Positions 3,065 through 28,445 are shown, counted from the first letter of the stretch. The stretch: 64,000 nt of DNA from Flavobacteriales bacterium (GCA_017620815.1 JAGAUI010000008.1:1-64000), one strand, 5' to 3'. Made by a program: numbers and translations. The notes: a model not told the origin generated them from the sequence alone.

Positions 3065-4573
3065 TTATAGTGTTTTAATGTTACTTTCTATTATATACTG
3101 GGACATAGAGTCGGCTATACGGCGGTCATTGGATAGACGAGGGAGTTTATTCTGCCCCCCTAGCCGTCCTACCGATTTCATATAAGCATCAAATGCTCCT
3201 TTACTTACCGAACTTATCACCGCCTCTCTTAATATCTTACCTTCTATAAGGTCTTTGTAATATACATTCTGCTTCTGCATCTCTTCATCTACACATCTAG
3301 CAAAATCCTGTAAATCTACCGTCTTTTCAAACTCCACCACCCACTCATGATATGGCAACCCCTCACTAGGTGTTACCATAGGAGCAACGGTAAATTCTCT
3401 TACTATGGCTCCTGTCTTGCTACATGCTACACCGATGGCCTGCTCCACTTCCTTGCCTATCACATGCTCTCCAAATGCCGATGTAAAATGTGCCACACGT
3501 CCTGTTACACGTACACGATATGGTTTTCTGGAAGTGAACATGACGGTATCTCCTATGCTGTATGCCCATAGACCGCTATCGGTAGTGAGGATAACGGCAT
3601 AGTTAACACCTTCTTCCACTTCCCATAGAGGCAAACGTCGAGCATTTGCAGTGCCATACTCCTCTACAGGTATAAACTCATAAAATATCCCCGAATGTAC
3701 CTCTAGGAGCATATCATCTGCATTGGGAGAGTCGGATGCTGCTATGAAACCCTCGCTAGCGGGATAAGTTTGGAGGATATCTACCTTACGACCTATCATC
3801 TCTTCAAACCTCACACGATATGGCTCATAGCTCACACCACCTGTTACCATCAATGAAAAATGAGGATAAAGTTCCCCTATCTTTTTACCACTACGGCTCA
3901 TAAGACGTTCAAAATACATCTGCAACCACGATGGTATGCCAGATATAAGTGTCATGTTCTCCCCTACAGTTTCATCTACCACTGCCTCCACCTTTCTTTC
4001 CCAGTCTTCTATGCAGTTGGTAGAGAACGAAGGTTTGCGATTAGATTGGAGGTATGCAGGGACATGATGTGCCACTATACCCGATAGACGTCCTATCTTT
4101 ATACCGTTTTTCTCCTCCAGAGCAGGACTACCTTGCAAGAAAATCATCTTGCCTCCCACATAATCTATATTTCCTGTTTTAAGAATATAACGCAACAGCA
4201 TATTGCGGGTGGATTTTATCTGATGACGTAATCCACAGCTGGTAAGAGGTATGTACTTACTACCCGACGTTGTCCCCGAAGTCTTGGCAAAATAAGCAGG
4301 GCGTCCGGGATATAGCACGTCTTTCTCTCCCGATGCTATGCGTTCTATATATGGTCGCAAATCATCATATGTGACCACTGGGACATTACCCCTATACGCT
4401 TCATAGTCATGTATCCTATCCATAGAATGTTCACGACCATACACCGTACGTGAGGCTTTTTTAAGTAGTCTAGATAGCACATCACGTTGTGCATCATGAG
4501 GAGAGTCATAATACTTCTTCTCCCTAGATAACACCACGCGAGCAAATATTTTTGATAGATATTTCTTCATCAC
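3065..4573 (-). CDS. GH3 auxin-responsive-promoter family protein
   Basis: A 502-residue member of the GH3 family of the adenylate-forming superfamily. Plant relatives couple amino acids to acyl acids such as auxin or jasmonate by way of an acyl-AMP. The N-terminal half has the ATP-binding TSGTTSGSKYIP near residue 100. TYPASEGF and, further on, YSIGDTVMF match the conserved core of the family. The substrate in bacteria is not known to me, so only the chemistry (ATP-dependent acyl activation) is inferred. It overlaps the upstream LytM-like gene by 4 bases and abuts purD. Confidence 0.85.
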   Translation of the reverse strand: MMKKYLSKIFARVVLSREKKYYDSPHDAQRDVLSRLLKKASRTVYGREHSMDRIHDYEAYRGNVPVVTYDDLRPYIERIASGEKDVLYPGRPAYFAKTSGTTSGSKYIPLTSCGLRHQIKSTRNMLLRYILKTGNIDYVGGKMIFLQGSPALEEKNGIKIGRLSGIVAHHVPAYLQSNRKPSFSTNCIEDWERKVEAVVDETVGENMTLISGIPSWLQMYFERLMSRSGKKIGELYPHFSLMVTGGVSYEPYRVRFEEMIGRKVDILQTYPASEGFIAASDSPNADDMLLEVHSGIFYEFIPVEEYGTANARRLPLWEVEEGVNYAVILTTDSGLWAYSIGDTVMFTSRKPYRVRVTGRVAHFTSAFGEHVIGKEVEQAIGVACSKTGAIVREFTVAPMVTPSEGLPYHEWVVEFEKTVDLQDFARCVDEEMQKQNVYYKDLIEGKILREAVISSVSKGAFDAYMKSVGRLGGQNKLPRLSNDRRIADSMSQYIIESNIKTL

Positions 4574-12531: not shown

Positions 12532-12539
12532 TACATTTG
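12532..12539 (+). promoter_or_regulatory. -7 box for lysA
   Basis: A perfect TACATTTG. The predicted start near 12545 lies downstream of the ATG at 12537 and upstream of the one at 12570, which decides the lysA start. Confidence 0.65.
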
Positions 12540-12569
12540 CATCTGAAAAAAAACACACATTATAACCCG

Positions 12570-13805
12570 ATGATTAAATTATCTCAATCACAAGAATACA
12601 GCATAGGAGGTGTTTCTGCCACAGAAATAGCCAAAGAGTACGGCACACCACTATATGTCTATGACATATCTACCATAGAATCCCAATACAATAGACTAGA
12701 TGCTGCTTTTTCATCCATTGGCAAACGCCGTATAAATTATGCTATGAAAGCATTGAGCAACATCAATATCCTACGCACCATGCGTCGTTTGGGAAGTGGT
12801 ATAGATGCCGTTAGCATTAACGAAGTGATGTTGGCATTAAAAGCAGGATTTGCTCCTTCAGACATCATTTATACCCCTAGCGGTGTAGATATGGAAGAGA
12901 TAGACATAGCCGTAGAGTTGGGGGTAAACATAAACATAGACAGCATGGTAGCTCTAGAGGAGTTTGCTAGGCGTCATAAGGATACACCTGTAGGCATACG
13001 CATAACTCCCCACATAGTAGCTGGCGGCAATGCCAAGATATGCACAGGAGGTATTGACTCAAAATTTGGAATATCTATACACTATCTAGACCGCGTAGAA
13101 GCTCTATCTCGTGAGACAGGACTTAAGATAAACGGCATACATATGCATACGGGCAGTGATATTTATGACGTAGATGTATTTTTGCGTGGTGCCGAAATCC
13201 TCTTTAATGCAGCCTCTCGCTTTCCTGTAGAATACATAGATTTTGGTAGTGGATTTAAGGTACGTTATCGCGATACAGACCGTGCTACAAATGTTGAATT
13301 ACTGGGAGAAAAGCTATCGGCAGCGTTTAATGCCTTTTGTGAAAAAGCAGGACGTGATATATGCTTCATGATAGAACCCGGCAAATTCCTAGTGAGCGAC
13401 AGCGGCACACTACTAGTAGGTGTAAACTGGGTGAAACAAGCTCCTGTAACCACATTTGCACAGGTAAACAGCGGTCTTAACCACCTTATACGTCCTATGA
13501 TGTATGACGCATACCACCACATAGTAAACATATCCAATCCTTTTGGAGAGATAAAAGACTATAACGTAACTGGATACATATGTGAAACAGACAATTTTGC
13601 ACAGAACCGCCCTATAAACGAAATACGCAAGGGTGATGTCCTAGCCATAATGAATGCCGGTGCATATGGTTATACTATGGCTAGCATGTATAACAGTCGT
13701 TTCCGCCCTGCTCAAGTAATGGTCAAAGACGGTCGTTGCCATCTTATCTCTCGTCCCGACACTCTGGAAGATATACTTTCTACACAGATAGATTTGGGAG
13801 AGTAA
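12570..13805 (+). CDS. lysA: Diaminopimelate decarboxylase
   Basis: A PLP enzyme that decarboxylates meso-diaminopimelate to lysine, the last step of lysine synthesis. 411 residues with the alanine-racemase-like barrel first (YAMKALSN holds the PLP lysine, HMHTGSDI follows) and the beta domain after (CETDNFAQNR, then AGAYGYTMASMYNSR). These are the family's substrate and dimer motifs. The start at 12570 (MIKLSQSQEYSI) fits the family length and the predicted transcript start. Related decarboxylases act on arginine or carboxynorspermidine, but the motifs favour LysA. A terminator follows at 13825. Confidence 0.92.
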   Translation: MIKLSQSQEYSIGGVSATEIAKEYGTPLYVYDISTIESQYNRLDAAFSSIGKRRINYAMKALSNINILRTMRRLGSGIDAVSINEVMLALKAGFAPSDIIYTPSGVDMEEIDIAVELGVNINIDSMVALEEFARRHKDTPVGIRITPHIVAGGNAKICTGGIDSKFGISIHYLDRVEALSRETGLKINGIHMHTGSDIYDVDVFLRGAEILFNAASRFPVEYIDFGSGFKVRYRDTDRATNVELLGEKLSAAFNAFCEKAGRDICFMIEPGKFLVSDSGTLLVGVNWVKQAPVTTFAQVNSGLNHLIRPMMYDAYHHIVNISNPFGEIKDYNVTGYICETDNFAQNRPINEIRKGDVLAIMNAGAYGYTMASMYNSRFRPAQVMVKDGRCHLISRPDTLEDILSTQIDLGE

Positions 13806-13932: not shown

Positions 13933-14421
13933 CTACTGCATAGAAAGAGGTGTTGCTATCACCTTTGCTTTGCCATCGGCTTTAAGGATAGTGGCAGTAA
14001 CTGTAATCAAGAACATACCACTACGAGAGAACGAAGCATTGAATTTGGCCACTACCCTAGCACGAGGGATTTCTATCACCATACCAGATTTTGGAGTAAC
14101 ACGTATGCTCATCTCTACAGTAGGTATGACCTCGGGAGCATTCCATGAGCCGTTATCTCCTTTATTTCCTCCTAGAAGAGATACCAGAGTATCTACATCG
14201 GCGTCCATTATAGAGAACGAAAGAATGATTTTACCGGGACGTGATACGCTTACTATAGGAGTATCACACTCTTCGGCATAGTGTTCTATTTCTTCTGGTT
14301 CATTCTGTGTAAGGGTACATGAGTCTTGGTATGTCATACCTAGGACTTTATATTGGCTATCTTCTGCCTCTACTGCTTTGGCTTCTATTTTTGAAAGTCC
14401 AAATGTTGCTATACTTGCCAT
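13933..14421 (-). CDS. Phage tail-tube-like protein
   Basis: 162 residues, beta-rich, with a short N-terminus and a C-terminus (VTATILKADGKAKVIATPL) that resembles phage tail-tube or related head-tail proteins. In tailed phages these polymerise into the tube. Assignment rests on position at the end of the head-gene order and on general character, not on a catalytic motif. It is the last gene before the terminator. The 10-base sequence AAACCTTTAA lies 12 bases before its start, as it does before ftsH. Confidence 0.6.
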   Translation of the reverse strand: MASIATFGLSKIEAKAVEAEDSQYKVLGMTYQDSCTLTQNEPEEIEHYAEECDTPIVSVSRPGKIILSFSIMDADVDTLVSLLGGNKGDNGSWNAPEVIPTVEMSIRVTPKSGMVIEIPRARVVAKFNASFSRSGMFLITVTATILKADGKAKVIATPLSMQ

Positions 14422-14485
14422 TTTTTTAATTTATTAAAGGTTTATAATCTTATGATTGGTTTGGTATAATTTTACATTAGTTTAT

Positions 14486-14893
14486 CTAAAACGCTCCTCT
14501 CAAAGAGACACATATCTCCATATGGCAGCAGAACATATCGTCCTCACGAGAGAAACGTTGTGAATCTACCCACGATAGACAGCCAGCATAGAATACTTCG
14601 TCTATCCCGTCAAATATAAGTCCAGATAGATATTCCAGACGTTTGAAGTCTGGCACCATATCTACGGCATCGGCTCGTGAAGAAAAGATAGGAGAAGAAT
14701 AAATATCTATCTTGACCCTTGCCGTTTCTCCTGCACGAGATATAAAATCCTGAGCATAGATGACTATATCTTCTTTATCACTACCAGCTGGACGTACAGA
14801 TTTATAGACACCTCCTGTTATCTGCCGTGCCACCTCCAATGCCATTATACGATGATACACGTGTGAGAGTATCGAAAAATGGGATTTTGTCAT
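14486..14893 (-). CDS. Phage head-tail connector-like protein
   Basis: 135 residues of mixed helix and strand. It sits where tail-completion or connector proteins are found in phage maps, between a smaller connector-like gene and the tail-tube-like gene. No motif identifies it for certain. The sequence AAACCTTTAA lies 6 bases before the ATG. An alternative ATG 16 codons further in (MALEVARQITGG) is possible. Confidence 0.5.
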   Translation of the reverse strand: MTKSHFSILSHVYHRIMALEVARQITGGVYKSVRPAGSDKEDIVIYAQDFISRAGETARVKIDIYSSPIFSSRADAVDMVPDFKRLEYLSGLIFDGIDEVFYAGCLSWVDSQRFSREDDMFCCHMEICVSLRGAF

Positions 14894-14919
14894 ATCATAT
14901 TAAAGGTTTGGGGTAAGTT

Positions 14920-15234
14920 TTATATCCACATTTTACAGCCTATGGGAGATGATATGAAACATCTAGCACGTCCTGTGGTAAGCAAGAATCCGTCTGCACC
15001 ATCTAGGATTTTGATAGGAGTACCGTCTTTTATAGCCGGTGTTCCAGCAGGCATATATACCACATAACTATAACGATAATCTTCGCCGCTGGATAGTACT
15101 ATATGTTGTCCCGAACCATTGCGTACGGCTCGGCATATGCAGTGTTCGCTGTATGAGGGGAGTGATGATTCATTATTCCCATTATCCTGTTCTATGTCCA
15201 TCACCTCTAGGACATTGTGATATAAATCAAACAT
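14920..15234 (-). CDS. Small phage-island protein, probable head-tail adaptor
   Basis: 104 residues, beta-rich after residue 30, with an acidic N-terminal stretch (DIEQDNGNN). Position between two connector-type genes suggests a structural role in joining head and tail. I do not recognise a family motif. Confidence 0.5.
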   Translation of the reverse strand: MFDLYHNVLEVMDIEQDNGNNESSLPSYSEHCICRAVRNGSGQHIVLSSGEDYRYSYVVYMPAGTPAIKDGTPIKILDGADGFLLTTGRARCFISSPIGCKMWI

Positions 15235-15258
15235 AATATACTTTTCTGTTTTATTTAA

Positions 15259-15582
15259 TTACCATATATGTGAACTGTCTTTTATAGCATTACCCGATGC
15301 TGTTATACACATATCTTCTACATGTCCATAACGTCTATAAATACTTTCGGCCATCTGGGCTAACATTTCTCTATCTTCTATAGTGATAGAAAAACCATCC
15401 ATAGTTACCGATGGTGTAGTTGATAACATCATATATACATCTGCACGGGCAAGCATAAAGGATTCGGTAGGGCCGCTGTATGCAGCACCTCCATCTATGT
15501 TTCTGTCTATAAATATCCTCTCTAGATATTTTTCATCTAGTGGATAACCGACAGTCATCTTAAGAGCTTCTAGGATAGTCAT
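15259..15582 (-). CDS. Phage head-tail connector-like protein (DUF6706-like)
   Basis: 107 residues beginning MTILEALKMTVGYPLDEKYLE, then an acidic helix and ARADVYMMLSTTPSV. This resembles short proteins found after the capsid gene in Bacteroidetes prophages, which I recall as DUF6706; that identification is from memory and should be confirmed. Gp6-type connectors occupy this position in other phages. A large hairpin at 15610-15681 lies between it and the capsid gene. Confidence 0.55.
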   Translation of the reverse strand: MTILEALKMTVGYPLDEKYLERIFIDRNIDGGAAYSGPTESFMLARADVYMMLSTTPSVTMDGFSITIEDREMLAQMAESIYRRYGHVEDMCITASGNAIKDSSHIW

Positions 15583-15609
15583 AATTCCAATTTTTCTGAA
15601 CGTAAAATA

Positions 15610-15681
15610 GCGACCGACTCTTTCTATGTGGACATCTTACCACACATCTCATACATACAGCCCACAAGAAAGAGCGGTCGC
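15610..15681 (-). terminator. Large imperfect hairpin between capsid and connector genes
   Basis: Bases 15610-15625 pair with 15667-15681 through 15 bp with one bulged A, and after a second bulged A the stem continues for five more pairs (15627-15631 with 15662-15666). The loop is about 30 bases. On the transcribed minus strand it is followed by UAUUUU, a weak U-tract. It could be a leaky terminator that makes more capsid than connector mRNA, or an RNA processing or stability site. Confidence 0.6.
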
Positions 15682-15718
15682 ACAACTAACACACTTTATA
15701 CACTATCATTACTATACA

Positions 15719-16795
15719 TTATTCTGCATTTGTATCATAGAGGTAACATCTGTCTGCATTACCCCATACAGGCAGAGCATTTGCTATGCCTTTGGTTACT
15801 TCGGTAACAGGGTCTTCGGTAGAGTATTTTTTGATGAGGATATGTTCTTTTTTCACTTTGGTTGCCACGCCATCTACTACCATTTCATCGGCCATAGGAG
15901 CGTGATATGTGTAACCGCACTTCATCTCTGGGACAAATGTAACTATACCTTTCTCCCATGGATTTACTGTCTGACGAGTTCCATCTGTTTTTTCTATAGT
16001 TACATATGTATCTATGATACGTATCTCTGGCAGACGATGAGCTACAAGAGCCATATTGACATCATCTACATTAGGAACTTTTATACGTCCTACCTGTGGC
16101 ACCCATGAAGAACAGAAATCCACTGCTTCGTCTGTTGCCATCATGTTATAAAATGTATCTATATCCATAAACAGGTATTTGAGAAGGATACCTTCACCTG
16201 TGGCACGTTCTACCATAGCTCTTATATCTGAAATAGGAGTAGCAGTAGCTGCGTTTTCTGCCTTCCAAGCTACAGATGATGATAGTTTATGTTCTGCAGG
16301 AACACCAAAATCAACCGATGTCTCGGTAACTATACCAGCATTGTTATCACTATCCAGTACAAATCCTCCTGTAGAAAGAGCTCTTAATGCCAACCATTCC
16401 AGACGAGCATTTATTCCCTTGAAACAGAAGTCTGTATCTCCATACACCCAAGCCATAAGGGCTCGCTGTCCTTCCTCGCTACCATAGTAGTACTGTAGGT
16501 GTTGATATTCGTTAAGGTCAGACTCTTCTTTTACACGAGTGATTTCTATCTTTGGTATCTTACCAGTGAGACGTTCTACTACGTTGCGGGTCTTTTTGGG
16601 AGCGGCACTGTTATATGACACAACGTCGGCAGCTACATTTATGCCGTATTCGCCAGAAAGTGCTCGCCATGTAAGTGTAGGCGTAAACATCACTGGAAAT
16701 ATAGATGGATAATAAAATTCATCTAGTGTGTATGAATCCATTACCGCTTGCAAGTCATTTTGAGTAAACTCTTTTATCAAACTCTTTTTCATCAT
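15719..16795 (-). CDS. Major capsid protein, lambda gpE-like
   Basis: 358 residues that should form the phage-type shell. The N-terminus (YYPSIFPVMFTPTLTWRAL) and the C-terminus (VTKGIANALPVWGNADRCY) have the character of the lambda gpE (Phage_cap_E) group of HK97-fold capsid proteins. That group relies on a separate scaffold, which fits the gene just upstream. The frame is intact and there is no sign of decay. The start gives MMKKSL; the second Met is equally good. Confidence 0.72.
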   Translation of the reverse strand: MMKKSLIKEFTQNDLQAVMDSYTLDEFYYPSIFPVMFTPTLTWRALSGEYGINVAADVVSYNSAAPKKTRNVVERLTGKIPKIEITRVKEESDLNEYQHLQYYYGSEEGQRALMAWVYGDTDFCFKGINARLEWLALRALSTGGFVLDSDNNAGIVTETSVDFGVPAEHKLSSSVAWKAENAATATPISDIRAMVERATGEGILLKYLFMDIDTFYNMMATDEAVDFCSSWVPQVGRIKVPNVDDVNMALVAHRLPEIRIIDTYVTIEKTDGTRQTVNPWEKGIVTFVPEMKCGYTYHAPMADEMVVDGVATKVKKEHILIKKYSTEDPVTEVTKGIANALPVWGNADRCYLYDTNAE

Positions 16796-16864
16796 TACTT
16801 AATTTTTGGTTTAACGGTTTATAAATTATTTCCTTTTTTGATTATAAAATAAATAAAAAAAGAT

Positions 16865-17377
16865 TTATTCTTTGAATTTTCCCATAAGAGGAGAATCGCT
16901 ACGCATAGAGCGAATATAAGCCTCTACCGCACTACTATGTCCCTCATGACGTACAGCACCTTCAGGGCGGGAGATTTTGGAGATATTATGGTCATTCTGC
17001 TCTTGGAGGAATGATTTATATGCGGTCTGAATAGCATCGGCTGCTTCCTGCCAACTAGAGTGAGCATCATCTATTTCAAGGGTTGCTCTCCAGAAATACT
17101 CTGGGACTTCACGGGAAGTAAGTTCGTCTGCAAGAGCTTTTTTAAATCCTGCTATCACTTCTTCCTGTGAATGATATTCGGCTAATTCTTCCTCTGAAGC
17201 AGCCAGTTGCTCGTAACTACCTTTCAACACCTCCAAAAGAGGCACATACTGCTCATAGGCAGCCTCCTGTAACTGTATATCATCGGGATTGTTTCCCTCT
17301 ATAATAGAAGATAATGCAGTAAGGACACTTTCTTCTATCATAGGATAATCGGTTTTAAGTTTCTCTGAAATCTTCAT
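16865..17377 (-). CDS. Acidic helical protein, probable capsid scaffold
   Basis: 170 residues, strongly acidic and predicted helical (QLAASEEELAEYHSQEE), ending in a short basic tail (MGKFKE). Scaffolding proteins of phage heads look like this and usually precede the capsid gene, as here. No protease motif is visible. It has a consensus -7 box at 17445-17438 of its own, so scaffold and capsid may form a separate transcript from the terminase. Confidence 0.5.
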   Translation of the reverse strand: MKISEKLKTDYPMIEESVLTALSSIIEGNNPDDIQLQEAAYEQYVPLLEVLKGSYEQLAASEEELAEYHSQEEVIAGFKKALADELTSREVPEYFWRATLEIDDAHSSWQEAADAIQTAYKSFLQEQNDHNISKISRPEGAVRHEGHSSAVEAYIRSMRSDSPLMGKFKE

Positions 17378-17437
17378 ACTTGTTTTATGGTTTGTGTTAT
17401 TAAATAATTGGTTTTATTTTCTGTAATACAATCTTCA

Positions 17438-17445
17438 CAAATATA
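17438..17445 (-). promoter_or_regulatory. Internal -7 box for scaffold/capsid genes
   Basis: A perfect TATATTTG on the minus strand in the gap between terminase and scaffold genes. It predicts a start near 17433 and a leader of about 55 bases. It lies exactly where a portal gene would be expected. Confidence 0.55.
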
Positions 17446-17474
17446 CTAAATAATTATCAAATAAGAAAGAATTA

Positions 17475-18797
17475 TTAGAAAAATATTTCTAGAGTCTTTT
17501 TCTCCCCCACGTCTTTAAGTTCAAAATACATACGCATCATAAGTGCATCGGCTACGTCTGGCGAACGACCTAGATTTTCTTTCATCTCACGTTTTGACAC
17601 TATAGATAGACGTTGAGCAACAGTAATATCGGCTGCTTTTATCTCTTGCATCTCTTCTATGATACGGTCTTTAAGACGTACATCATCTACATTTATTCTT
17701 ATCATAGAACGATTTACATAGTCTGCCCACAGGAAATAGCATTGGTTTTTGAGGTTGGAGAAATTCTGTTGTTTACCTCTTACCATTATAGGCGATGAAT
17801 TATTTACAAATCCCTTACATCGCAACGTATCCACTACACCCCCACCTACTCCGTCTTCGTCACATATTACATGAGAGAGGAGGACTCCATGCACTGCACA
17901 CATATCTCTTATAATAGCCGATGTTTCATCTACACCGCTTCTAGGCATTACCTTTATACTTTCACACATAAGACCGTACCACAGGCATATGACAGTACTA
18001 TCACTACCAAAACGAGCTATATCGGCTGTGATATATCTCTCATCTTTTTTCACCTCTCGTGGGGAGAACATATCTATGATTTTATCATAGTTCATAAGTG
18101 CCGATGGGTCTTCGTCATACTCCCAAGAGCCATATAACAGCCTATCTCTAGAACGAGAATCAAGACCTTTGAGGCTATCCTTGTAATGTGATGAAATGTA
18201 AGGATTATCACCTACCAGCGAACTTATAAACCTTTTATCCTCGTCCAAAACACCTTCTTTCCACGGTTTATAAAAACGATTATAAACATACCCTCTGGAA
18301 GGGTTACACGTTCCCAAAATCTTGGGTATGAGATTATAATCATTAAGTCTATACCTTATACGAGAACGAACTATATTCCATGCTTTGAGAGATATCTGAT
18401 TACACTCATCTATAAAGGCTCCCGTTACTTCCAGTGAACCCAATTCGTCAAAATCTGGGTCTGATGGTCGTGATTGGAGGGGTTTGAGTACTATGACAGA
18501 TGATGTAGGACGCAAGAGGATTTCTCCACGGCTTTCGTTATAAGAAAAGGCATCGGCAGGGATATCCTGCATACGTGCTACATAACGTAATGTATTGAGC
18601 GTAGTCTGTCTAAGTGTAGTAAGACGACTTCTTGCCACCAAATAACGGCTTTCTGGATACTTAAAAAGACATTTGAGTACCCAGTAACACCCCAGTACAG
18701 ATTTACCCCCACCCGCTCCACCTCCATAGAGGATTTCGCGGGTGGTAGCATCTTCTAGAAAGTCAAGAGCCTCTGTTTGTTTTATCGTCAGTTCCAT
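17475..18797 (-). CDS. Phage terminase large subunit
   Basis: The DNA-packaging motor ATPase and nuclease. 440 residues. Walker A GGGAGGGKS at 25-33 (Lys32), Walker B FIDE with Asp130/Glu131, coupling motif LGTCNPS at 161-167. The RNase H-like nuclease has Asp259 (TADIARFG), Asp313 (CDEDGVGGG) and Asp414/417 (SPDVADAL). Every catalytic residue I would look for is present, so the gene shows no decay. It overlaps the small subunit by 35 bases. The portal gene that normally follows is absent. Confidence 0.93.
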   Translation of the reverse strand: MELTIKQTEALDFLEDATTREILYGGGAGGGKSVLGCYWVLKCLFKYPESRYLVARSRLTTLRQTTLNTLRYVARMQDIPADAFSYNESRGEILLRPTSSVIVLKPLQSRPSDPDFDELGSLEVTGAFIDECNQISLKAWNIVRSRIRYRLNDYNLIPKILGTCNPSRGYVYNRFYKPWKEGVLDEDKRFISSLVGDNPYISSHYKDSLKGLDSRSRDRLLYGSWEYDEDPSALMNYDKIIDMFSPREVKKDERYITADIARFGSDSTVICLWYGLMCESIKVMPRSGVDETSAIIRDMCAVHGVLLSHVICDEDGVGGGVVDTLRCKGFVNNSSPIMVRGKQQNFSNLKNQCYFLWADYVNRSMIRINVDDVRLKDRIIEEMQEIKAADITVAQRLSIVSKREMKENLGRSPDVADALMMRMYFELKDVGEKKTLEIFF

Positions 18798-19218
18798 AAC
18801 TTTTACGTTCGTTCCACACTACTGTCGTTGGAGTATTTTCCATCGCCGTATGATTTATGTTAAGACCTAGTAATTTGGAGCGTTGTTCATTACATCGTCT
18901 TATTTCAGATAGATAACGAGCATCGCCACCGCCTTCGTCAAGAGATTTTGACTCCTCCCAAGCCTGCCATAATTCAGCCTCCAATGCGTCTATTTTTTTT
19001 AATTCCAATGCTCGCATTATCTTCTGGTCCTCTATCGTACTATTTTCTCCCCATGACTCTAGAATCTCAGAAAGAAGTCTATTTAGTTTTCTAGGATACA
19101 TCTTTTCTCCCGTTAGATTATGTACACGAGCCATTATCTTGGCTTTTGAATAGCCTTTTATGTAGCATTCGGCTATTATCTCTTTTACTCTTTCTTTTTC
19201 AAATTCTTTTTCACTCAT
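18763..19218 (-). CDS. Phage terminase small subunit-like protein
   Basis: 151 residues with an N-terminal DNA-binding-type segment (GYSKAKIMARVHNLTG, helix-turn-helix-like), a long charged helix (about 60-115), and a polar tail. Small terminase subunits recognise DNA and regulate the large subunit. The call rests on this layout and on the direct overlap with the large-subunit gene. Confidence 0.75.
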   Translation of the reverse strand: MSEKEFEKERVKEIIAECYIKGYSKAKIMARVHNLTGEKMYPRKLNRLLSEILESWGENSTIEDQKIMRALELKKIDALEAELWQAWEESKSLDEGGGDARYLSEIRRCNEQRSKLLGLNINHTAMENTPTTVVWNERKSYGTDDKTNRGS

Positions 19219-19260
19219 CGTTTATCCTTCACATTTGTTATCAATAAAGAAATTTATTTA

Positions 19261-19527
19261 TTAAAAAATATATACTATCTCGTCTTCACATTGGTCAAAT
19301 AACGTGTCTATGAAAAAATCCTCCAATGCCCTTTCAGATGGTAAGACATGGCGAAATTTCTTTTTACTCTTCTTTCCACCCTTGCATTTTACAGGTTCTG
19401 ATACCCAAGTTACATCATCTACCTTACGACGTTTCATAGTCATGGAAGCCTCTATCTTTTTAAGCTCATCTAGTCTTTCTATGGCTATCTTACGCTGCTC
19501 TCTGAATTCTTCTTCTGTAATAATCAT
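19261..19527 (-). CDS. Small basic phage-island protein, unknown
   Basis: 88 residues: a helical N-terminus (EEEFREQRKIAIERLDELKK), a Lys-rich middle (CKGGKKSKKKFRHV), and an acidic C-terminus. It lies between another small gene and the terminase small subunit. Function unknown; the basic region could bind nucleic acid. Confidence 0.5.
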   Translation of the reverse strand: MIITEEEFREQRKIAIERLDELKKIEASMTMKRRKVDDVTWVSEPVKCKGGKKSKKKFRHVLPSERALEDFFIDTLFDQCEDEIVYIF

Positions 19528-19557
19528 TGCTTTTTTGATAATTTTAATTATATAAAA

Positions 19558-19809
19558 TTATAATTTATTATTTTCACGACGTTTATCAATTACCCTTGTC
19601 CTATTTATAGAGTTGAGTAATACATCGCGTACAGTATCTTGGTAACGAGCATAGGCCTCTCTTATGAGTTCCACATCGTTATCACATAGATGTAATCTAT
19701 TTTTAAGAATATAGTCTGTGGGTATCCCTATGTATGATACCACACCATTTTCACAGATGGGATAATCCAGTTTCATCTGCCTTAATTGTACATATGTGCT
19801 TCTTTTCAT
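19558..19809 (-). CDS. Small phage-island protein, unknown
   Basis: 83 residues, first gene of the leftward island operon, with a consensus -7 box about 50 bases upstream. The C-terminus is rich in Arg, Asn and Lys. I do not recognise it. The promoter and tight spacing support it as a real gene. Confidence 0.5.
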   Translation of the reverse strand: MKRSTYVQLRQMKLDYPICENGVVSYIGIPTDYILKNRLHLCDNDVELIREAYARYQDTVRDVLLNSINRTRVIDKRRENNKL

Positions 19810-19858
19810 AACAACTATAAAATTAATACAATCACTATATTTTAGAGTTTTAGCCCTA

Positions 19859-19866
19859 CAAATATA
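19859..19866 (-). promoter_or_regulatory. -7 box for the phage-island operon
   Basis: A perfect TATATTTG on the minus strand, about 50 bases before the first island gene, facing away from the regulator gene. The surrounding 19810-20056 gap is very AT-rich and is the natural place for operators. Confidence 0.6.
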
Positions 19867-19982
19867 TCAATTTTTGTATAAATGAAAAGAAATTGCTACA
19901 AATTTTTTTTCACATAAAAACAGACGTATTATTGACAAATAAGATGATTTGATAAAATAATCAAAAAAACAAATTCAAAAAA

Positions 19983-20014
19983 TTGACTTATATAGACCAA
20001 ATATGCTATTTTTG
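19983..20014 (+). promoter_or_regulatory. Promoter for the divergent regulator
   Basis: TTG at 19983-19985 and TATTTTTG at 20007-20014, 21 bases apart, match the Bacteroidetes pattern. The predicted start near 20020 gives a leader of about 37 bases. Confidence 0.65.
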
Positions 20015-20056
20015 AACTAGAAAAACAACACAATATATGTAAATCCACACTATCTT

Positions 20057-20320
20057 ATGCCTAAATTAAAAAATCCCGAAATCCAAAAGGAAATAACTCA
20101 TAGAGTTATAAGTTCCATAGAAAGACTCATAGAACTAGGATTGGTACGCAACCAAAAAGAACTATGCCTTGCCTCTGGATATAAAGAAGCCAACCTATCC
20201 AAAGTAATGAATGGTGAACGCCAAGCACCACTTATGCTACTTCACTTCCTGTCTTTTTCATACGGCATCTCTACCGAATGGCTAATACTAGGAAATGGTA
20301 CTATGTTTAAAAACAAATAA
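20057..20320 (+). CDS. Small helix-turn-helix regulator, Cro/CI-like
   Basis: 87 residues. The centre (NQKELCLASGYKEANLSKVMNGERQAP) is a helix-turn-helix of the lambda-repressor type, with the recognition helix around EANLSKVMNG. It lacks any large C-terminal dimer or protease domain. It is transcribed away from the phage-type operon across a shared promoter gap, the usual place for a phage regulator. It probably controls that operon, itself, or both. A terminator follows at 20339. Confidence 0.8.
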   Translation: MPKLKNPEIQKEITHRVISSIERLIELGLVRNQKELCLASGYKEANLSKVMNGERQAPLMLLHFLSFSYGISTEWLILGNGTMFKNK

Positions 20321-20393: not shown

Positions 20394-21020
20394 TTATTTT
20401 TTGGTAGTTACGAGAATCACACCATTTTCACTACCACCACCATATAGGCTGGCTGTACCGTCTTTAATAACCTCTACTTTATCTATCATATTTGGGTCAA
20501 GGTTTGCTGACTCTAGGTTATCTACACGTGTACCATCCACCAAATATAGGTTACATCTATTACCGCGGAAGAACACATAACCATCTTCATAGATAACGCC
20601 TGGGGATTTACTTTCTACTATACTTTTAATAGATTTATAACCAGTAACTTCATCTGCACGCATAGTTGCTTTGGCAGTAGTTGCTGTATGCTGGTCTATA
20701 AGACCTTTGGCTATAGCCTTGTCCATATCAGAGAACTGAAGTGTTACATCTAGCACAGTCTGTTTTTTACCTACTTTGATGTATTGAGATACCACTCCAT
20801 CACCAGCTACTATAACGTTGAGTTCTTTTGGTCCCAATTCCACAGAATATTTACCTTCTGCATCGGTATAAGCAACTTTTTTGGTTCCCTGTACAGCGAC
20901 TTTAACACCTTTTATAGGAGCATCACCAAATTTTACAGTTCCAGTAAGAGTACGGTTTTGGGCAAATACTACCGCAGATACAGCCATAAGCGATAGAGCA
21001 AATAATGTTTTTAATTTCAT
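20394..21020 (-). CDS. Secreted TonB-plug-only protein (no beta-barrel)
   Basis: 208 residues: signal peptide (cut near Ala20), a carboxypeptidase-regulatory-like beta domain (about 22-95), a linker, and a TonB-receptor plug-like domain (about 120-208). The plug ends at GGSENGVILVTTKK, exactly where SusC-type receptors pass into the barrel, but the protein stops there. It therefore cannot be a transporter itself. It may be a periplasmic adaptor or a remnant given new work. A paralogue with the same layout lies at 25290-25961. It has a promoter at 21073-21066. Confidence 0.85.
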   Translation of the reverse strand: MKLKTLFALSLMAVSAVVFAQNRTLTGTVKFGDAPIKGVKVAVQGTKKVAYTDAEGKYSVELGPKELNVIVAGDGVVSQYIKVGKKQTVLDVTLQFSDMDKAIAKGLIDQHTATTAKATMRADEVTGYKSIKSIVESKSPGVIYEDGYVFFRGNRCNLYLVDGTRVDNLESANLDPNMIDKVEVIKDGTASLYGGGSENGVILVTTKK

Positions 21021-27587: not shown

Positions 27588-28445
27588 TTATATGCAAAAA
27601 AATAGAAAAATAATAACAAATGGCACAACCATTATAAAACTATCCAGACGGTCTAGAATACCTCCATGCCCAGGCATTATACGACCAGAATCCTTAACGC
27701 CTGCATCACGTTTGAACATAGACTCCACCAGGTCTCCTGCCGTACCTGCCATACATACTATTACAGCCATCACTATCCATACCCACATAGGGTATTCTCC
27801 TATGAGAAAATACAGAGCCACCGCTATACCTATGGTTCCAGCCACACCGCCTATAAAACCTTCTATGGTCTTTTTGGGGGATATACGTTCAAATAATTTG
27901 TGGCGACCCATTGATATCCCAAATAGATATGCAAACGTATCATTACTCCATAGCAGAGCAAAAAGTCCCAATATAACCCATTTGCTAGTTACGACAGGTA
28001 GGAGCATTGACATAGCAAATGGCACACTCACATAGACAATAGCCACCACAGATGATGATACTTGTCTTACCGCATCACCTCCAGCAGTAAAGAGTGCCAC
28101 TATAAAGGCTATAAAAATACCCAATATAGATACCACAATACCAGCCAAAATATACTGCATGTCTAGTCCCGTACACCATGAGAGAGATGTGTACATCATA
28201 CCTATGTGTATCACAAAGACAACTATTTTCATAGCCATATTAAGAGACATCATACGCGACATCTCTATCATAGCAATAGCCGAGGCCACCATCACAAATG
28301 CTATAAACGAATAATCACTATATAAAATACTATAAAGCAATATACCCACATACACCACTGCCGAAAGGGCTCTTATGGGCAGCGAAGCTGCTATGAATTT
28401 TTCTTTTACACTCTTACGAGGAGCGGGATTTACATTTTCAGACAT
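27588..28445 (-). CDS. cdsA: Phosphatidate cytidylyltransferase
   Basis: Makes CDP-diacylglycerol, the precursor of membrane phospholipids. 285 residues with about eight membrane helices and the C-terminal family signature [12 protein letters not shown] followed by [25 protein letters not shown]. psd lies 7 bases downstream and ftsH 11 bases upstream. Confidence 0.96.

Follow-up and report, generated by a model that had tools for sequence, protein, structure and literature searches.

A candidate gene transfer agent dispersed across the genomes of a Flavobacteriales genus

A head-and-packaging island between host genes

The DNA considered here is a 64,000-nucleotide stretch from a Flavobacteriales bacterium (GCA_017620815.1 JAGAUI010000008.1:1-64000), hereafter the window, which is contig C20 of a metagenome-assembled genome (MAG) of 1.73 Mb and 99.5% completeness. 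It carries a compact island of phage-type head and packaging genes, probably the head-and-neck operon of a gene transfer agent (GTA) whose remaining genes lie scattered among host genes elsewhere in the same genome. The island spans the interval from lysA (12537-13805, + strand) to a TonB-plug gene (20394-21020, - strand) and consists of ten open reading frames (ORFs) on the - strand (13933-19809) and one divergent gene of helix-turn-helix (HTH) type. The source genome (G000) was compared with three sister genomes (G001 to G003), all four being draft MAGs from a genus near Candidatus Merdimorpha. The genes of the island are as follows.

20057-20320, + strand: putative HTH-type regulator, 87 aa, oriented divergently to the head operon; its position is shared by G002 (84% identity) and G001 (71%)
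19558-19809, - strand: 83-aa protein, first gene of the head operon, no function assigned; 47-66% identity across the four species
19261-19527, - strand: 88-aa protein, no function assigned; 40-70% identity across the four species
18763-19218, - strand: small terminase subunit (TerS), 151 aa, preceding the large subunit; three-helix HTH-like N-terminus and coiled coil in an AlphaFold model
17475-18797, - strand: large terminase subunit (TerL), 440 aa, catalytic motifs intact (Terminase_3, 3e-7; phrog_2, 1e-33)
16865-17377, - strand: scaffold-like protein, 170 aa, between TerL and the major capsid protein; weak hhalign match (61%) to the protein upstream of the major capsid protein in Riemerella phage CRP19
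15719-16795, - strand: major capsid protein (MCP) of lambda gpE type, 358 aa (Pfam Phage_cap_E, E 9.6e-21; phrog_29, 7e-48)
15259-15582, - strand: head-tail adaptor-like protein, 107 aa, assigned by position only; four-helix model
14920-15234, - strand: head-closure protein (p104), 104 aa (hhalign 97% to CRP19 and 96% to Porphyromonas phage005; phrog_13251, 2e-12)
14486-14893, - strand: tail-completion protein (p135), 135 aa (hhalign 97% and 94% to the phage counterparts; phrog_5597, 4e-10)
13933-14421, - strand: major tail (tube) protein (p162), 162 aa (hhalign 99% to the phage005 major tail protein; phrog_6767, 8e-39)

An earlier note on this DNA, made from the sequence alone, had described eleven intact genes, among them an apparently complete TerL, a capsid protein and scaffold-, connector- and tail-tube-like proteins, at a locus that lacks a portal, an integrase and flanking repeats. 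That description holds throughout. The Walker A (GGAGGGKS) and Walker B (GAFIDE) motifs of TerL and its nuclease aspartates (TADIARFG/CDEDGVGGG/SPDVADA) are invariant in the four species, and the protein is 48% identical to the TerL of Flavobacterium phage 11b. The genes behind the MCP gene match, in order, the adaptor, head-closure, tail-completion and major tail genes of phage005 and CRP19, with hhalign probabilities of up to 97-99% for the last three. The assignments are softer elsewhere. The best matches to the TerS fold in the PDB are the small terminases of phages G20C and P74-26, with weak scores; structure searches with the 107-aa protein gave one weak, unnamed phage fold; and the 87-aa protein has no Pfam or NCBIfam match, its HTH motif having been called by eye. 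The island contains no portal or integrase gene and no long or flanking direct repeats, and there is no tRNA anywhere in the window. In four related phages the portal gene stands directly behind TerL, a place where the G000 island has none.

The sister genomes (RGIG7177, from water-buffalo cecum; STD2_115, sample label Sandtown; and Candidatus Merdimorpha stercoravium) all carry the island; gene content and gene order are unchanged over the extent of their contigs and stop codons are absent, which places it far beyond chance. Identity to G000 in the three is 85, 66 and 65% for TerL and 94, 87 and 82% for the MCP. Matches to an MCP pattern among 84,980 species are confined to these genomes. Across 398 genomes of the order, a profile search recovered the MCP in four of four genomes in the genus and in 7 of 394 outside it; the five outside loci that were read are linked, prophage-type clusters with a portal or MuF gene, and mostly a tube, tape-measure, distal tail or tail-tip gene, near the MCP gene. 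The MCP had no match in IMG/VR. TerL matched many phages there at about 50% identity, most of them with a different gene order and no obvious portal just behind TerL; marine phages among these (L023, L025, L034, L045 and similar contigs) have no portal-sized gene at that position.

The portal and other orphan structural genes

The missing portal is a puzzle that resolves at the scale of the genome, since the gene lies alone on another contig. The SPP1-type portal model PF05133 matches a single gene per genome in all four (E 7e-45 to 3e-48), so that the search for an orphan portal suggested in the earlier note came out positive in all of them. The gene has no stops, is 62-84% identical between species and is 45% identical to the portal of phage005. 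It stands alone: in G000 and G002 its neighbours are the trigger factor gene (tig) and a TolC gene, and in G001 it also adjoins tig. Portals of the PF05133 type accompany this type of MCP in phage005 and CRP19. An HK97-type portal was considered and rejected: searches of the genome with PF04860 and with a purpose-built profile of 12 portals located behind related TerLs were negative, and the orphan portal, being of SPP1 type, fits the capsid lineage and not the TerL lineage.

In G000 the set occupies seven loci on six contigs: the portal (C38), a MuF-type minor head protein (C16), the tape measure (C8), the distal tail protein Dit (C24), the tail tip and a lysis cassette (both on C12, 14 kb apart) and the head operon (C20). 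All seven loci were found in all four genomes, homology searches having completed the tail-tip and Dit sets. The earlier view that portal, tail-assembly and lysis genes are missing is therefore right for the island and wrong for the genome, where these genes lie elsewhere. The tape measure is a shortened protein of 482 aa (phrog_21917, 8e-27), reached both by a motif scan and independently by profile. The tail-tip protein (phrog_31303, 8e-129), Dit (phrog_14220, 3e-27 and 1e-35) and the MuF protein (phrog_7625/35295) are each present in four of four genomes, and the MuF and tail-tip proteins bear long extensions that vary by lineage. Most of these family matches are to the phage lineage already seen in the island. 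The lysis locus, likewise in all four, is a three-gene cassette with a small lipoprotein/membrane protein and, in three of the four genomes, a DUF5675 gene (4e-29); from these sequences it is read as a set of putative lysis genes.

Two further observations concern single genomes. The cassette of G003 has no DUF5675 gene, and a 163-aa ORF resembling M15 peptidases lies elsewhere in that genome with an exact motif copy (L206, contig C178; L128 9115-9750, contig C102). An endolysin swap is possible; the ORF is missing from the other three genomes and matches no family significantly, and its identity as an endolysin is a guess from sequence. In G001, contig C114 (L129 3968-6491) carries a linked tape-measure end, a Dit gene (46% identical to the scattered Dit) and a Mom-like acyltransferase gene beside an insertion sequence (IS) element and mnmE. 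This piece probably survives from a genuine prophage of the progenitor lineage.

A shared motif and the age of the set

The scattered loci share a DNA motif. A 27-bp sequence, TTTTATTTCCTTTTTGATTATATTTGA, recurs without change in three species 53-55 bp ahead of the portal gene, within a leader that is otherwise mostly divergent, and scans for it led to the tape measure, MuF, Dit, tail-tip and lysis loci. Its 19-bp core, TTATTTCYTTTTTGAYTAT, has 17 exact copies in the four genomes, 16 of them at genes whose phage homology is independently supported and one ahead of the unclassified 163-aa ORF. With up to two mismatches allowed, the core gives 30 matches against 5 for a reversed control pattern, and the reversed 27-bp control gives none. 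Most leaders of the regulon differ from the motif at 0-3 positions, compared with at least 5 for 37 control genes from the window. Most matches with three mismatches in G001 and G003 (C64, C74, C96, C181) have no recognisable phage gene beside them and are taken as chance. On G001 contig C18 (L152, about position 3679) a 140-aa orphan ORF stands behind a copy of the core with two mismatches and is a possible extra member of the regulon.

Two copies lie within the island itself.

19954-19968, - strand: 3' half of the motif, TTTTTTGATTATTTT, between the divergently oriented HTH gene and the head operon, upstream of the latter; exact match, with 0.04 expected at up to one mismatch
16825-16845, + strand: inverted copy of the motif with one extra T, between the scaffold and MCP genes

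Blocks similar to this half-motif occur in G001 and G002. The inverted copy at the MCP gene has an exact core in G002 and one mismatch in G001 and is absent in G003. Two further copies in inverted orientation lie within 85 bp upstream of the MuF gene of G001 (L125 4731-4814), one of them ending at the start codon. A TAnnTTTG element, the -7 box of Bacteroidota promoters, overlaps the motif or directly adjoins it, and for this reason the motif is probably a promoter combined with an operator or activator site. The inverted copies at the G001 MuF gene and before the MCP gene hint at a protein-binding site in addition to a promoter.

The loci keep their neighbours. The portal stands by tig and the MuF gene by YccF in G000, G001 and G002, and the same three genomes share a TetR gene and the next gene at the lysis locus and a large gene upstream of the tail tip. 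The tape measure is flanked by an Omp85 gene in G000, G001 and G003 and by other shared genes in G002; Dit is flanked by SusC/SusD in G000 and G001 and by SusC in G003. The head island has relocated, lying beside psd in G002 (psd is 6.6 kb away in G000) and beside recR in G001 and G003. No empty site was seen among the four species.

The genes are also under purifying selection. Between G000 and G002 the ratio of nonsynonymous to synonymous divergence (dN/dS) is 0.051 for the MCP, 0.065 for TerS, 0.073 for DUF5675, 0.076 for the portal, 0.078 for the tape measure, 0.107 for TerL, 0.153 for MuF, 0.164 for the tail tip and 0.207 for the lipoprotein of the lysis cassette; the row lys151, read in a wrong frame, is excluded. 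Most genes of the set thus fall at 0.05-0.16 and most housekeeping controls at 0.02-0.06, ratios that are rough because dS is about 1 or more for most genes. The GC content at third codon positions (GC3) of the set and of the host is 0.38/0.35, 0.36/0.41, 0.39/0.39 and 0.79/0.76 in the four species, the entry for the G000 MuF gene, which was out of frame, being disregarded. Identity to G000 ranks G002 above G001 above G003 for most genes. Given the conserved flanks, the purifying selection and the host-matched GC3, the set most likely became resident before the genus diversified. Near the island, a CDP-diglyceride synthase gene (window 27591-28445; L006 240-1091) has a proportion of synonymous differences (pS) of 0.11 between G000 and G002, compared with 0.38-0.72 for other genes, possibly the result of a recent exchange.

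A probable dispersed gene transfer agent and its relation to known systems

The reading that best accounts for these observations, with a probability of about 0.78, is that the set encodes a vertically inherited, co-regulated and dispersed GTA derived from a siphophage of the Porphyromonas/Riemerella type, with the island as its head-and-neck operon. The core proteins are homologous to one siphophage lineage and TerL to another. In such an agent the motif would act as a common promoter/operator that turns all loci on together. The capsid would assemble on the scaffold around a single portal, TerS and TerL would pack it with host DNA, and the adaptor, head-closure and tail-completion proteins would seal the filled head. 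The particle would be short-tailed, built on the shortened tape measure with Dit and the tail tip at its end; tails measure about 0.15 nm per tape-measure residue as a rule of thumb, so 482 residues would give a tail of about 70 nm. The lysis cassette would then open the cell and free particles that inject their DNA into related cells. Since the genes are scattered and no integrase is linked to them, the set can neither package itself nor move as one piece, and it passes on along with the chromosome. No integrase and no replication genes were seen at the loci read, and without these or linkage the DNA that is spread would be general host DNA, as in a GTA.

We also favour, with more reserve, a stronger form of this reading, in which the agent is a fully 'exploded' GTA and the first of any kind in Bacteroidota, nearly all structural genes outside the head operon being single-gene loci at host sites of their own and joined solely by the promoter/operator motif. 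If so, dispersal would be the mark of complete domestication, with self-packaging and reversion to a phage made impossible. The set would also illustrate how agents of this sort can escape notice, since each piece by itself resembles a meaningless orphan phage gene and the shared motif alone joins them.

Several points weigh against a GTA. The organisms are known only as MAGs, and particle, packaged DNA, transcript and transfer are predicted from their genes. The motif is weak before the first head gene (4-6 mismatches, only the 3' half being clear) and missing altogether in front of the MCP gene of G003 and the tail-tip genes of G000 and G002. The case for vertical inheritance draws on flanks and identity ranking, short of formal tree congruence. 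No neck (gp10-like) protein or tail-assembly chaperone was identified, no search having been aimed at them. TerS of RcGTA, the agent of Rhodobacter capsulatus, has no N-terminal DNA-binding domain (PMC6854486), a proposed trait of GTA-type TerS that lies outside the definition of a GTA. The present TerS departs from it, with three N-terminal helices before the coiled coil in the model, and packaging may accordingly be less random, with preferred starts.

The same HTH domain, phage-like and retained in the TerS model, would suit a domesticated, co-regulated particle of another kind, such as a specific packager, a decoy, a killer or a device for protein or DNA delivery without general DNA transfer. 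The long lineage-variable extensions on the MuF and tail-tip proteins would suit it too, and all the conservation evidence fits it equally well. It is nevertheless unlikely, if deserving of real weight: the ATPase and nuclease motifs of TerL are complete, the set has kept portal, TerS, capsid and tail genes alike, and nothing near the loci is evidently a cargo gene. To our knowledge, the known domesticated sets of capsid, terminase and tail genes with these properties are GTAs.

An old prophage that had lost its function and been broken up by rearrangement might also lie in scattered pieces, and G001 does hold a separate prophage-like scrap beside an IS element, but genes free of stops in four species, with the low dN/dS values above at dS of about 1 or more, a shared regulatory motif and the same loci kept in every species, make decay very improbable. 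A helper-dependent satellite of the capsid-forming phage-inducible chromosomal island (PICI) type, or another mobile element, would explain a compact head-and-packaging island with a divergent HTH regulator; still less can be said for it, because the island has no integrase, attachment repeats or tRNA and is present genus-wide, while the other parts stand singly at fixed sites among host genes and include a portal, tail and lysis genes of the set's own. Thus, of the possibilities raised in the earlier note, a helper-dependent satellite or remnant and a domesticated particle, it is the second that stands. That note had also named two findings that would speak against it. One was an island in a single strain with raised dN/dS; here it is in four of four genomes with low values. 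The other was a full parent prophage elsewhere in the genome, and none was found in this one. Assembly or binning artefact, with genes of several phages mixed into MAGs, is scarcely credible even though every genome is a draft MAG, as the island sits between host genes inside a 64-kb chromosomal contig and the orphans lie beside tig, tolC, Omp85, SusCD, YccF and TetR genes in independent assemblies with host-matched GC3. A complete or recent prophage is ruled out by structural genes that are on separate contigs and linked only in other Flavobacteriales, and a tailocin by the presence and conservation of MCP, TerL and portal.

The properties of the dispersed GTA proposed here can be set against a published definition, used as a test (PMC9662315). 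Descent from caudoviricete proteins is borne out by the homology of the head, portal, tail and lysis genes, with particle formation deduced from them; the genome is endogenised at multiple loci, seven in number and lying between host genes; and inheritance appears mostly vertical, from presence in all four genomes of the genus, flanks, identity order and GC3. The definition also asks that an agent be unable to package its whole genome, which may hold here, the loci being dispersed and so not packageable as one unit. Encapsidation of mostly random host DNA and its delivery to other cells, the functional points of the definition, are predicted for the set.

RcGTA, of the type I alphaproteobacterial group, is similar in having caudoviricete-derived head, packaging, tail and lysis genes at several loci, five in its case (PMC9662315), vertical inheritance and no linked integrase. 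Its core structural genes form one main cluster, whereas here the portal, minor head protein, tape measure, Dit and tail tip each stand alone. The present set differs further in its phylum and its unrelated phage ancestor, in the shared DNA motif at its scattered genes and in the HTH-like domain of TerS. BhGTA (VSH-1, Brachyspira) resembles it in being genus-wide and likely dispersed, with TerL outside the main cluster (PMC9662315), but belongs to another phylum, has other proteins and keeps a main cluster of 16.3 kb. FpGTA of Faecalibacterium shares a gut host, an operon with TerS, TerL, scaffold and MCP, and a second locus for tail and lysis (PMC12946183); it differs in being from Bacillota, in its probably podovirus-like nature, in a portal inside the operon and in having two loci instead of seven. 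Phage005 and the Riemerella phages of the RAP44/CRP19 type share the MCP, portal, MuF, head-closure, tail-completion, major tail, tape-measure, Dit and tail-tip proteins. In these phages, however, the genes are linked (phage005 with an annotated integrase) and the tape measure is 1357-1445 aa long as against 482, and the TerL of the present set is closest to that of Flavobacterium phage 11b instead.

GTA loci of one or two dispersed genes are known (PMC11841831). GTAs have been described in Alphaproteobacteria, spirochaetes, a sulfate reducer and an archaeon (PMC9662315) and recently in Faecalibacterium (PMC12946183), and no report from Bacteroidota was found in the open-access literature. The set is thus apparently a new, independent candidate lineage, unusually dispersed and with a regulon marked in its sequence. 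If the reading is right, domestication of a phage took place separately in small-genome bacteria of the vertebrate gut, and the motif offers a direct way to look for other scattered GTAs and for what regulates them.

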